A DNA stretch of 26,382 bases, taken from positions 1 to 26,382 of the IMG/VR virus record IMGVR_UViG_3300005827_000060, one strand, 5' to 3'. Shown piece after piece: positions 19,510 through 24,039 of this stretch (position 1 is the first letter of the stretch; every line of letters begins with the position of its first letter). Source of the DNA: a virus. The notes beneath the pieces were generated by a model that was not told the origin of the DNA, searched no databases, and was given only the letters and a program-made list of their open reading frames with translations. Both the position numbers and the translations under genes were made by a program.

Positions 19510-21462
19510 ATGTCCCCAGCCATGCCCCAAACAGATTTTATTCAACCCACCTTATCCGACTTCACCGCCCCCACCACGCCCGAACAGGGCGAAGCCAACG
19601 CCACCGTGGCGCGCAAAATTATCCGCGCGCACATTGATAACTGCCTGGACGGGCGCTTTCAAGAGCGCGGGCCTAACGACCCCAGCGACCCCCGCCTCAT
19701 CGCCTTCGCCGATGAACTCTGGCGGGATGGGCAACAAAGCCCCGGCATCGGCATCTTGCTACCCGGGTCCGTGGTTGAGGAAATAGATGGCGCGCTTACG
19801 CTAGTGTGCGGCAACCTCGAATTAATTGCCGCCCACCGTCGCCGTGATGCCCGCCGCCTAAACAACGAGCGCTACCTGCGCGAAAACCCCGACGCTACCG
19901 CCAGCGAATGGCTATACATGGACGTGGACATCCGCGAGGACGTGACGCCCGTTGAAATGTTCCGCATCGCCTGGAGCGATAACCACCAGCGGCTCGATTT
20001 GAACGCCATCGAAAAGGCCAAATACATCCGCTACCTGCGCGGCCTGGGCATGACCCAGGCGGAGGCCGCCGCCGAGCTGGGCCTGACCCAATCGGCAGGC
20101 AGCCACTTAGAGTCGCTGCTCGACTTGCCCGACGCCATTCAAGCCCAGATAGGCGATGGCGCTATCCCCGAACGCCACGCCCGCAACATCCGGTCAGTGC
20201 ATCGCTGGTCACCCGCCGTGGCCGAGCGCATAGCCCAGGCCGTGGCCACCGCCGACTCCGGCAGCAAAGACACCGCTGCTGAACGCGCCTACTCGTTGGC
20301 CTTGCTCGACCCCAGCATCGCCCGCCCGCTGAACAAGATAGATCAGCCCTTCGACCCAAACAAGCCCCTCACGCTGGATGAAGAGCTATGTGAGGCCGCC
20401 ACCGCCGCGGGCATACAGCGATTCGTCACCGCCTGCCCACCGTGTGAGTATTTCCGCGCTGAGCGGGAAAAAATCTGCCTAAATCCCGCGTGCTGGGTGT
20501 TGAAGGCAATGAGCGCTCATCTAGCCGCCGCGCGTGAACGCGCTGCCAACTGGAACATCCCGGTGTTGTTCACGCCCCGGGGCGAGACGTGGCAATTGGT
20601 GGACGATTTATGCGAGCGATACCAGCTCTATACCTGGGCCAGCGCCATATTGGCCAGCCGCAAATCCGCCGTGCGTGAGCATGTGCGCGTGGTGGTGGTG
20701 GATACGAACGGTGAGGACTTCAGCCGCAAGCATAACCGCAAAAACTACAGCGGCTACTCCTTCATCACACTCGCCACCAACAACGCGGCGGCGCTTCTCA
20801 AAGCGGTCCCGCTGCCCGTGTCCGAGGCTCAAGAGGAGGCCGAAGAGTCAGACCCCACTACCAGCGCCGAGCGCAAACATCAGGAACGCCAAGCCAAAGC
20901 CGCCGAGCGCAAAGCCGAGGCCGAGCAGCGCCAGCGGGAAGCGGAGGAGGCCGAGCGCAACGAGCTGAAACGGGTCAATTTAGAGATGCTCAAACTGGCG
21001 TCTGATGTAGCGGCCAACCTCTTTACCGCGCCGCTGGCCGAAATGGTCTGGGGCCAGCTGGCGTCCGATGGGTCTATGACCCCGGTTGAATTCCAAGAGC
21101 TCACACCTACCGAACAATGCGCCTTTGTGATGAACACCATCATCGCCAACGAGGTCGAGGCGCGCATTCAGATGGCGGGCGGCGCGGGCAGCTACTTCAT
21201 CTACTCCCCGAATAAGATTTTTGCAAAGCACCTGTTTGAGATTTTGGCCACGCTGGACGTGCATGTGCCTGCCCAAATCGCCATCATCTGCGGGCAGGAT
21301 CAGCCCGCGCCCAAGGCCAAAAAAGCCAAGCGCGAGTCGAAGCCCAAGAAACCCTCTAAGGCCGCGAAACCCACAAGCGGCAACACGCGCAAGCCCACCA
21401 AAGCGGGCATCAGCATTGGCAAACTCAGCAAACGCGCGCTGGCCAACGCCGCCAAAAAATAA
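19510..21462 (+). CDS. Large ParB-like protein with zinc motif
   Basis: This 650-residue protein starts at ATG 19510. Residues about 75-115 resemble a ParB N-terminal domain (LTLVCGNLELIAAHRRRDARR where ParB has its GERR motif), and residues 178-200 are a helix-turn-helix (GMTQAEAAAELGLTQSAGSHL). A four-Cys cluster follows at 309, 312, 323 and 328. Then come a long middle domain, a charged coiled coil at about 445-495 and a Lys-rich tail. It probably binds phage DNA at specific sites for segregation, regulation or nucleoid-like packing. It is far longer than plasmid ParB proteins (300-350). Confidence 0.65.
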   Translation: MSPAMPQTDFIQPTLSDFTAPTTPEQGEANATVARKIIRAHIDNCLDGRFQERGPNDPSDPRLIAFADELWRDGQQSPGIGILLPGSVVEEIDGALTLVCGNLELIAAHRRRDARRLNNERYLRENPDATASEWLYMDVDIREDVTPVEMFRIAWSDNHQRLDLNAIEKAKYIRYLRGLGMTQAEAAAELGLTQSAGSHLESLLDLPDAIQAQIGDGAIPERHARNIRSVHRWSPAVAERIAQAVATADSGSKDTAAERAYSLALLDPSIARPLNKIDQPFDPNKPLTLDEELCEAATAAGIQRFVTACPPCEYFRAEREKICLNPACWVLKAMSAHLAAARERAANWNIPVLFTPRGETWQLVDDLCERYQLYTWASAILASRKSAVREHVRVVVVDTNGEDFSRKHNRKNYSGYSFITLATNNAAALLKAVPLPVSEAQEEAEESDPTTSAERKHQERQAKAAERKAEAEQRQREAEEAERNELKRVNLEMLKLASDVAANLFTAPLAEMVWGQLASDGSMTPVEFQELTPTEQCAFVMNTIIANEVEARIQMAGGAGSYFIYSPNKIFAKHLFEILATLDVHVPAQIAIICGQDQPAPKAKKAKRESKPKKPSKAAKPTSGNTRKPTKAGISIGKLSKRALANAAKK

Positions 21463-21493
21463 TGACTGCGGACATATAAGGCCATTAAACAGC

Positions 21494-21570
21494 CTGGGCG
21501 CGGTGTACGGCACCGCGCCCAGCGTCGGACTCTGACAGGGCCGACGCGCCCGATTATATAGGACTCTGAC
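21494..21570 (+). promoter_or_regulatory. Double inverted repeat and repeated leader before the membrane gene
   Basis: A 12 bp stem (21494-21505 with 21511-21522) and a 7 bp one (21522-21528 with 21541-21547) follow the ParB-like gene. GGACTCTGAC occurs at 21527-21536 and again at 21561-21570, the second directly before the ATG. The same 13 bases, GGACTCTGACATG, start the zinc-ribbon gene at 13604. A TATATA stretch at about 21555 could be a -10. Function unknown. The hairpins may end the ParB-like transcript. Confidence 0.45.
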
Positions 21571-22802: not shown

Positions 22803-23816
22803 ATGACCAAGCAACTCTCCCCCTTAGCCCTTGACCCCGGAGCCAGCAAGCTTTTAGCCTACGGCCCCGACTCTGCCTGGGCGTTTCAATCTTCCCATGT
22901 GGCCCCGGCGCTTGGGAACGGCCTAGCGGGTGGCGACGGCCTAAGCGCCCCTTCCGCGCGGCCCATGAAAATCTCAGCGGTCAACGTGCCGCCGCTTTAC
23001 GTTGGCGACTTGGCCCACCGGTGGGGCACACCAATGTCAAACAACGACTTTGACCGTTTCGGTGGCGCGCCAGAGATGCGCGCCCTATTTTATGCGGTGC
23101 TGACCCAATACACAGTCGCGCACGGCCCGCTGACCGCGCCGCTGCACCTGGGCGTGGCGCTGCCTAATGAATTCCTGGGCACTGCCAGCGAAACCGAAAA
23201 GCAGCGCGTGCGCGACTGGCTGTTGGGTGTGCATATTTGGGATGCCGACTGGCAGGCGCTGGACGCCAACGGCGAGGCCCGTCTGCGGGTCGAGGTGGGC
23301 GCGGTGAGCATCATGGCCCAGGCCGTGGCTACGCTGTTTGATTACACCCTGGACGATAGCGGGCGTTTAATCCCCGAACGCAAAGCCGCCACTAAGGGCA
23401 CCATCGGCATCGTCAACATTGGCCACCGCACGGTTGAGCTAACAGCAGTAGAAAACGGCGAACGGTTGCCGCGCTTCACCACCGGGGCCAGCATCGGCGC
23501 GGCCAATCTCCTGCGCCTATACGATCCGCACGGCCACGCAGAGGTGGCCGAGCTTGAGCCGCGCCTGAGAAGCGGTCGCCTGGACGTGGCCGACTTCCTA
23601 CCTCTGTGGGAGCGCCAACCCGCCCGACTGGTGGATGAGACCTGGGGCAATGCGTGGCGGCGTTGGAGCGTGGTGGTAGTTGCCGGTGGTGGGGTGCTGC
23701 TGCTCCCCACCTTTGCCGACCGCTTCAACGGTAAGGCGTTTGTGCCGCCTATGCCCGCCCACGCTGTTGCGCGCGGGGCCTACAAGTCGTTGCTGGCCAA
23801 GCTGCGCCGGTCGTAA
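22803..23816 (+). CDS. ParM-like actin ATPase
   Basis: I place the start at ATG 22803 after AAGAGGA. The 337-residue protein has the actin-fold signature: phosphate-1 motif ALDPGASKLLAYG (9-21), phosphate-2 region GIVNIGHRTVELTAV (202-216) and adenosine motif VVVVAGGGVLLLP (290-302), then an ARGAYK segment (323-328) as in ParM/Alp proteins. It would polymerise with ATP into filaments that move plasmid or phage DNA. Phosphate-2 has Asn instead of the usual Asp, which might change hydrolysis. The ParR-like gene follows after one base. Confidence 0.8.
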   Translation: MTKQLSPLALDPGASKLLAYGPDSAWAFQSSHVAPALGNGLAGGDGLSAPSARPMKISAVNVPPLYVGDLAHRWGTPMSNNDFDRFGGAPEMRALFYAVLTQYTVAHGPLTAPLHLGVALPNEFLGTASETEKQRVRDWLLGVHIWDADWQALDANGEARLRVEVGAVSIMAQAVATLFDYTLDDSGRLIPERKAATKGTIGIVNIGHRTVELTAVENGERLPRFTTGASIGAANLLRLYDPHGHAEVAELEPRLRSGRLDVADFLPLWERQPARLVDETWGNAWRRWSVVVVAGGGVLLLPTFADRFNGKAFVPPMPAHAVARGAYKSLLAKLRRS

Positions 23817-23817
23817 T

Positions 23818-24039
23818 ATGGCCCGCCCCCAGATAGCAGGTGAGCTTGTCATCGTGCGTCTAACGCTGCGCCTGAGGCGCGGCGAGGATGACGACCTCAT
23901 TGAGCTTTATGAGGAAACCCCCAAACGCAAGCGTGCGGCCCGCACGAAGGCCCGTATGCGCTCCGGGGGCGTTGCCACCGCCCAGCATGCCGCCGCTGAT
24001 GACGATATGGTAGACGACCTGTTGGGCATGATGGAGTGA
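23818..24039 (+). CDS. ParR-like adaptor
   Basis: This 73-residue protein starts at ATG 23818, one base after the actin-like gene. Its first 50 residues (VRLTLRLRRGEDDDLIEL, then a basic KRKRAARTKARMRSGG helix) resemble the ribbon-helix-helix pattern of ParR/StbB adaptors, which bind centromere repeats and the filament end. The C-terminal DDDMVDDLLGMME is acidic and amphipathic, like the ParM-contacting tail of ParR. Gene order parM-parR and size fit type II partition. Assignment is by pattern and context. Confidence 0.6.
   Translation: MARPQIAGELVIVRLTLRLRRGEDDDLIELYEETPKRKRAARTKARMRSGGVATAQHAAADDDMVDDLLGMME

Follow-up and report, generated by a model that had tools for sequence, protein, structure and literature searches.

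An actin-like protein and its linked adaptor as a probable DNA-positioning module in an integrating phage of Anaerolineales

The 26,382-base IMG/VR record IMGVR_UViG_3300005827_000060 (the window in what follows), which is classed as linear and is a 26-kb fragment, so that genes absent from it may lie outside, belongs to a temperate phage that integrates in a tRNA-Met gene and whose host is an Anaerolineales bacterium. We consider it probable that this phage carries a DNA-positioning module resembling AlpAC and ParMRC, in which an actin-like protein and a small adaptor act as one functional unit. A previous sequence-only reading had called the two proteins ParM-like and ParR-like, and had taken them as signs of a phage-plasmid that also encodes a large ParB-like protein. 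The features on which the argument turns are listed below.

22803-23816, plus strand: actin-like (ParM-fold) protein of 337 amino acids, likely ATG start at 22803, adenosine motif VVAGGG
23818-24039, plus strand: small basic adaptor of 73 amino acids, predicted ribbon-helix-helix domain and acidic C-terminal helix, putative ParR/AlpA-like role
22747-22789, no strand: three GTTATTTG half-sites in alternating orientation, candidate adaptor site (operator or centromere)
21571-22671, plus strand: membrane protein, upstream neighbour of the actin, two hydrophobic segments (Kyte-Doolittle)
19510-21462, plus strand: orphan ParB-like protein of 650 amino acids, HTH_ParB domain, probably outside the actin module
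16721-17755, minus strand: tyrosine integrase (Phage_integrase, E 6e-27)
16613-16672, minus strand: att core of 60 nt, 3' part of the host tRNA-Met(CAT) gene plus flank, phage genes on both sides, phage attachment site (attP)

The strongest evidence for a joint function of the two proteins is their pairing, as a profile search recovered a single adaptor at every one of 30 loci (30/30), either beside the actin gene or one open reading frame (ORF) away. The profile was built on 13 adaptors, so that 17 of the 30 loci lie outside it: Virus Rctr41k and 16 stretches of host genomes that had been selected by their actin alone. The adaptor is encoded directly downstream of the actin in most loci and upstream of it in L009, while a methyltransferase-like ORF separates the two genes in L002 and L004. 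As a single query the window actin had no match in viral contigs; a tblastn match to Virus Rctr41k gave an alignment with which 11 viral contigs and one Anaerolineales metagenome-assembled genome were found. Actin matches at E <1e-10 occur in 28 of 301 Anaerolineales genomes, some of them being distant homologs that have Asp in the phosphate-2 motif (Asp-type, see below), and when 400 genomes were drawn evenly from across the phylum, a close match (E <1e-60) was present in just two of them, G001 and G039, both Anaerolineales. The family occurs in phages and integrative elements, with relatives in integrase-bearing phages or elements and in chromosomally integrated elements, one actin-bearing relative being integrated in a 2.3-Mb contig. 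The actin-adaptor pair is thus a real family, which we found undescribed: the literature on CorM/CorR, Rctr41k and Anaerolineae phage actins provided nothing usable, and the record of Rctr41k (KX853513.1) lists both its actin and its adaptor as hypothetical.

The reading frame of the window actin opens at TTG 22776 and stops at 23816, with a likely start at ATG 22803, preceded by AAGAGGAC, whereas that of the adaptor opens at 23680 and its likely gene starts with an ATG one base past the actin stop. The coordinates given previously were therefore generally correct, except for these starts. The actin matches PHROG_691, annotated as 'partition protein', with an E value of 1.4e-12, and its sequence profile matches pCBH ParM with an E value of 2e-8. 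An AlphaFold model based on 13 family sequences (predicted local distance difference test, pLDDT, 83; predicted template modelling score 0.84) has a complete actin fold. Foldseek searches with this model returned pSK41 ParM as the best hit (E 5e-18), followed by CorM, Dh-cParM1 and pCBH ParM; VIA-align gave Z scores of 30.8 for Dh-cParM1, a chromosomal ParM, and of 27.3 for CorM and pCBH ParM. As modelled, the window protein is an actin-fold protein on the ParM side of the superfamily, and the structure prediction that had been proposed as a check bears out the ParM-like assignment.

A typical adaptor of this family has a basic start (often GRPRK or ARPK), an extended segment, a helix that begins around ED/DDLI, a turn with P-x-x-KR, another helix that ends around ALRSG, and an acidic segment at the C-terminus. 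The AlphaFold monomer of the window adaptor shows the order extended segment-helix-helix, with pLDDT about 90 at residues 11-50. The profile of its family obtained ten non-significant hits in the PDB, including pB171 ParR (2jd3, E 0.12), pSK41 ParR (2q2k, E 0.49) and NikR (1q5v, E 0.74); these three, all ribbon-helix-helix proteins, align over the extended segment-helix-helix region. On this modelling, a ribbon-helix-helix fold is likely, and we predict that the adaptor probably binds DNA. Pfam, PHROGs and NCBIfam yielded no name for it, ParR being the commonest weak NCBIfam match (E 0.078, 2 of 27 members), and patterns derived from the full adaptor alignment were too variable for scanning. 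The ParR-like assignment hence stands in part, in that the gene is linked and the model does not contradict the fold, but a significant ParR match is missing.

Directly before the actin ATG we found the three GTTATTTG half-sites (22753-22760, 22771-22778 and 22782-22789), an octamer that is absent from the rest of the window. The first two fall within a perfect inverted repeat with 14-bp arms (22747-22760/22771-22784); inverted repeats with arms of at least 12 did not arise in any of 20 shuffled windows, and the unshuffled sequence contains five more at other places. Simple scans ruled out the region 22747-22789 as a terminator or as a sigma-70 promoter. At the same place in relatives, iterated GCCAAACC (L013), GTCCAAAC (L007), GTCAAACC (L048) and ACCAACC (L059) can be seen by eye, and a 7-mer repeat score fell below p 0.05 in 7 of the 28 loci scored, the proportion among 230 control genes being 8%. 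No repeats were present in L008, L010 and L015, where the actin starts within a few bases of the upstream gene. As a side observation, TTAACCGCTA-like sequences recur near the module in intergenic regions of L005, L002, L012 and L046, some of them as long hairpins.

The window actin has the adenosine motif without the complete set of canonical ParM ATPase motifs, as its phosphate-2 motif reads VNIGHRTVE, with Asn instead of Asp. Among the 28 rows of the family clade, this residue is Ser in 24, Thr in one, Pro in one, and Asn in the window and L058. The branch that separates the non-Asp rows has a support of 100/98, and Asp is retained by the distant actins of Anaerolineales that serve as outgroup, as well as by pCBH ParM, CorM and Alp12 in the alignment. 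Within the actin superfamily the phosphate-2 Asp matters for the positioning of Mg and water, and its loss predicts that ATP hydrolysis is most likely altered in this family. In close pairs of Ser/Pro-clade relatives the ratio of nonsynonymous to synonymous substitutions (dN/dS) is 0.044-0.054 for the actin, so the Ser-form actin is a maintained protein, and 0.10-0.27 for the adaptor; these ratios cover the relatives, the window copy having no close ones.

The phage lifestyle was established from the att core, whose 60 nt occur without a mismatch in the Anaerolineales genome G025, where they make up the 3' part of an intact tRNA-Met(CAT) gene together with its flank (55 nt in G071). Since the window includes only the 3' part of the tRNA gene, and this part lies between the integrase and phage genes, the site is attP, and a contig that spans attP implies both that the phage integrates and that the sampled DNA was free, as virion or circle. 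The E value of the integrase, this tRNA identity, and the presence of portal, protease, terminase and head-tail adaptor genes corroborate the integrase, att core and head genes noted previously. The previous reading had overlooked three things: the membrane protein encoded between ParB and actin, the half-sites in front of the actin gene, and the extension of the contig across attP. Separately, the 3' end of tRNA-Met recurs four more times in G025, a 6.1-Mb genome, as partial copies of 44-47 nt (L064, L067, L068 and L069), which we read as repeated integration of several elements at one tRNA.

The membrane protein encoded upstream of the window actin has a C-terminal domain that by eye looks like winged-helix regions, and it is a possible membrane anchor. 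In 9 of 12 viral loci a protein with hydrophobic segments is encoded at most 2.6 kb upstream of the actin, and genes for transmembrane (TM) proteins make up 11 of the 17 directly upstream, compared with 27 of 166 at other positions (Fisher p 4e-5; viral loci, related to each other). Function names were not obtained for these upstream proteins, neither for that of the window nor for those of the three relatives searched. An FtsK/SpoIIIE-like cluster gene lies upstream in L005, L007, L013, L047-L051 and L059 (supported by Pfam in L047 and weakly in L005). Several host loci have the order TM protein, FtsK-like protein, actin, adaptor, further gene and integrase, and we regard these as integrative elements rather than as phages with recognised heads. 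Among them, the chromosomal elements L046, L047, L049, L050 and L051, which encode a TM protein, an FtsK-like ATPase (not in L046), the actin, the adaptor, an unnamed protein of 464-497 amino acids and an integrase, possibly constitute an undescribed type of Anaerolineales integrative element.

The large ParB-like protein was correctly recognised by the sequence-only reading, as shown by matches to Pfam HTH_ParB (E 2.7e-10), NCBIfam ParB (5e-8) and Noc (7e-11), and the PHROG ParB-like family (3e-7). Past its helix-turn-helix (HTH), at residues about 300-330, there is a cysteine cluster, CPPC...CLNPAC, which possibly binds zinc. ParA (PF13614), matched in all control genomes, is absent from the contig, a fragment, and what is present falls short of a type I ParABS system. 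Viral relatives of the ParB-like protein did not turn up in a pattern scan; a relative of 638 amino acids, 33% identical over 220 residues, occurs in a terminase-related contig. That the ParB-like protein and the actin form one hybrid partition system is very improbable: the two genes are on the same strand and only two apart, but the ParB-like protein is missing from the other 12 actin-carrying records, and among 49 contigs related by terminase a ParB-like HTH is found in nine and a ParM in one, which also has ParB. Going by this distribution, the ParB-like protein is probably not part of the actin module and looks like separate cargo. Given the same counts, both partition-type genes are optional cargo in this phage group. 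Two partition-type proteins do occur together on the contig, as had been pointed out, with the qualification that one of them has neither a ParA nor a counterpart beside the other actins.

Comparison with known systems places the module among several partial precedents. AlpA-AlpC-alpS of the Corynebacterium prophage CGP3, which we liken by description, also combines an actin-like protein, a small DNA-binding adaptor and repeats upstream of the operon in an integrating prophage (PMC4446434; PMC5539076), and AlpAC, which has alpS repeats upstream, has been proposed to bring the excised DNA of this integrated prophage to the membrane (PMC4446434). It differs in that the window has three half-sites, and in that the window family has replaced the phosphate-2 Asp, a residue recorded for AlpC, ParM, MreB and actin (PMC4446434; PMC5539076). 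The ParMRC systems of plasmids R1, pSK41, pB171 and pCBH share the ParM-like actin fold, the order actin-adaptor and, with part of the family, the repeats before the actin, whereas structural alignment gives identities of 9-17%, the adaptor is not significantly similar to ParR, the Asp is lost, and the window module resides on an integrating phage. SrpMRC, which stabilises integrative and conjugative elements (ICEs) of the SXT/R391 group and is co-expressed with int, is likewise a ParM-type module on an integrating element, with an adaptor that lacks a recognisable domain; however, the element is conjugative and the module is in one operon with int, the likeness being again by description (PMC4489591). 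The Bacillus phage vB_BtS_B83, probably a plasmid prophage, has ParM, an adaptor of the ribbon-helix-helix type and iterons, but also a RepA-like initiator (PMC6669507), where the window phage has attP in tRNA-Met. In Virus Rctr41k the actin is 35% identical, with a membrane-protein gene upstream, the adaptor downstream and an integrase-like gene, and with a methyltransferase-like ORF between actin and adaptor as the difference.

According to the explanation we favour, the actin and the adaptor would be one unit working like ParMRC or AlpAC in a temperate tailed phage. A dimer of the adaptor would use its ribbon-helix-helix domain to bind phage DNA, with the half-site cluster before the actin as the likeliest target, and its acidic C-terminal helix to bind the actin filament. 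The filament would then hold or move excised or newly infecting phage DNA, so that this DNA replicates or is retained, possibly moving it toward or at the membrane with the help of the upstream membrane protein. We infer DNA binding, polymerisation, filament-adaptor contact, membrane contact and service to an extrachromosomal stage; given the precedents of CGP3 AlpAC and SrpMRC, a module for the free stage of the phage is the economical reading. The suggestion, made as an alternative by the sequence-only reading, that filaments position DNA during infection comes close to this, with a ParM-fold actin and a linked adaptor in a temperate phage.

Several observations weigh against such a module. 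The adaptor had no significant ParR match in the PDB profile search (best E 0.12), and neither Foldseek nor VIA-align matched its model to any chain, although little can be concluded from such a null result when the model is one 73-residue chain of an intertwined dimer. The repeats before the actin are not found in every one of the 28 loci scored, and their combined p value of 3.7e-6 comes from non-independent tests, as the loci are related and kinship was not corrected for. The one ParM among the 49 terminase relatives is of the different, Asp type, and this rarity indicates that the module is not essential to this phage type. That one case (L134 of G684, positions 3168-4586) encodes an Asp-type ParM followed by a ribbon-helix-helix-like protein and membrane proteins, and we interpret it as the independent acquisition of a similar kind of module. 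A separate test for the PHROG_2 terminase in the actin-carrying contigs is insensitive, as it matched only one of them, yet L010 has a Pfam terminase. Lastly, the loss of the phosphate-2 Asp argues, as far as sequence can tell, against an ordinary cytomotive ParM, while the phosphate-1 loop of the window copy is apparently two residues short (DPGASK) and its branch is long (2.32 changes per column); the window copy may therefore have weakened or taken on another role. As the Asp is replaced and the phosphate-1 loop shortened in the window, we describe the family as a variant that would work like ParMRC/AlpAC without the canonical ParM ATPase motifs, not as a canonical ParM.

We regard it as unlikely that the phage is a true phage-plasmid, an autonomous low-copy plasmid whose pair would be a classical ParMRC segregation system. 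The pairing and the half-sites do resemble parM-parR-parC, phage B83 with its ParM, ribbon-helix-helix adaptor and iterons offers a precedent as a probable plasmid prophage (PMC6669507), and the contig spans attP, hence the sampled DNA was unintegrated. However, such a contig could equally derive from virion or transient circular DNA, the integrase adjoins an attP that matches a host tRNA-Met gene, neither ParA nor a plasmid Rep was recognised among the proteins of this 26-kb fragment, and relatives are chromosomally integrated, as in the 2.3-Mb contig. Thus, of the phage-plasmid persistence proposed previously, integration is supported by attP and integrase, whereas for the plasmid state no Rep was recognised in this fragment; and the premise that type II partition belongs to low-copy plasmids is not supported, since SXT/R391 ICEs and the integrated CGP3 prophage carry such modules too.

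A sub-case of the explanation we favour, in which a non-motor actin acting as a nucleotide switch or as stable filaments would tether DNA to a membrane protein while hydrolysing little ATP, if any, is a serious possibility, if somewhat short of even chances. It would fit the well-supported change from Asp to Ser, Thr, Pro or Asn in a 28-row clade whose outgroup, like pCBH ParM, Alp12 and CorM, keeps Asp, as well as the dN/dS of about 0.05 in Ser/Pro-clade pairs and the membrane-protein neighbours; yet other residues may substitute for the Asp, and hydrolysis rates cannot be read from structure models. A generalisation of this idea, that the phage and integrative-element actins without Asp in Anaerolineales are low-hydrolysis, membrane-coupled DNA tethers, made of actin, ribbon-helix-helix adaptor and a membrane protein or FtsK-like ATPase, rather than cytomotive filaments, is put forward more tentatively still. 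It is quite improbable, by comparison, that the window actin is decaying cargo and the pair at most an operon repressor acting through the adaptor: the very long branch, the two altered nucleotide motifs and the operator-like place of the half-sites would agree with this, but the frame is open over its full length, the actin fold is complete and well predicted, the adenosine motif and the adaptor tail are kept, and other family members are under strong constraint.

The left part of the window is a head module on the minus strand, and the right part is on the plus strand, in the order putative initiator, ParB-like protein, membrane protein, actin, adaptor, cytosine-5 methyltransferase and adenine methyltransferase. 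The remaining features are as follows.

2072-11087, minus strand: phage head module, phage structural genes present
2072-2656, minus strand: head-tail adaptor, head module
3111-4664, minus strand: probable major capsid protein, by position only
4686-5987, minus strand: protease, head module
6540-8735, minus strand: portal/minor head protein, head module
8743-10203, minus strand: large terminase, head module
10200-11087, minus strand: DUF5681 protein, possible small terminase, head module
16282-16533, plus strand: small HTH protein, possible excisionase or regulator (HTH_17 weak, E 0.037), separated from the integrase by the att core
18426-19271, plus strand: putative phage replication initiator, from the layout

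A perfect palindrome with 21-bp arms and an internal TTGACA (16221-16267), between a minus-strand ORF and the HTH gene, is a candidate lysogeny operator. Inside the putative initiator gene, AT-rich nested palindromes (18690-18808) include two near-identical CTGAAAGCACAAAAAATGTGCTTTCAG, between which lie 60 bp of AT-rich sequence with GTTAGTAGTAGTAG/CTACTACTACTAAC arms, and this region resembles a candidate replication origin within the initiator gene; in the lambda O gene, too, the origin is located within the initiator gene. Two long perfect hairpins (5992-6033 and 11428-11468) with common CCGATGCC...GGCATCGG ends may be terminators or a repeated element.

To our knowledge, phage-encoded actins are known in detail from very few cases, and the family reported here extends them to viruses and integrative elements of Chloroflexota. 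That its actin adjoins membrane-protein genes fits the membrane transport proposed for AlpC. The filaments of known actin-type partition systems are thought to depend on ATP hydrolysis for their dynamic instability; a constrained family that keeps the actin-adaptor pairing without the shared Asp makes the need for hydrolysis in DNA positioning directly testable.

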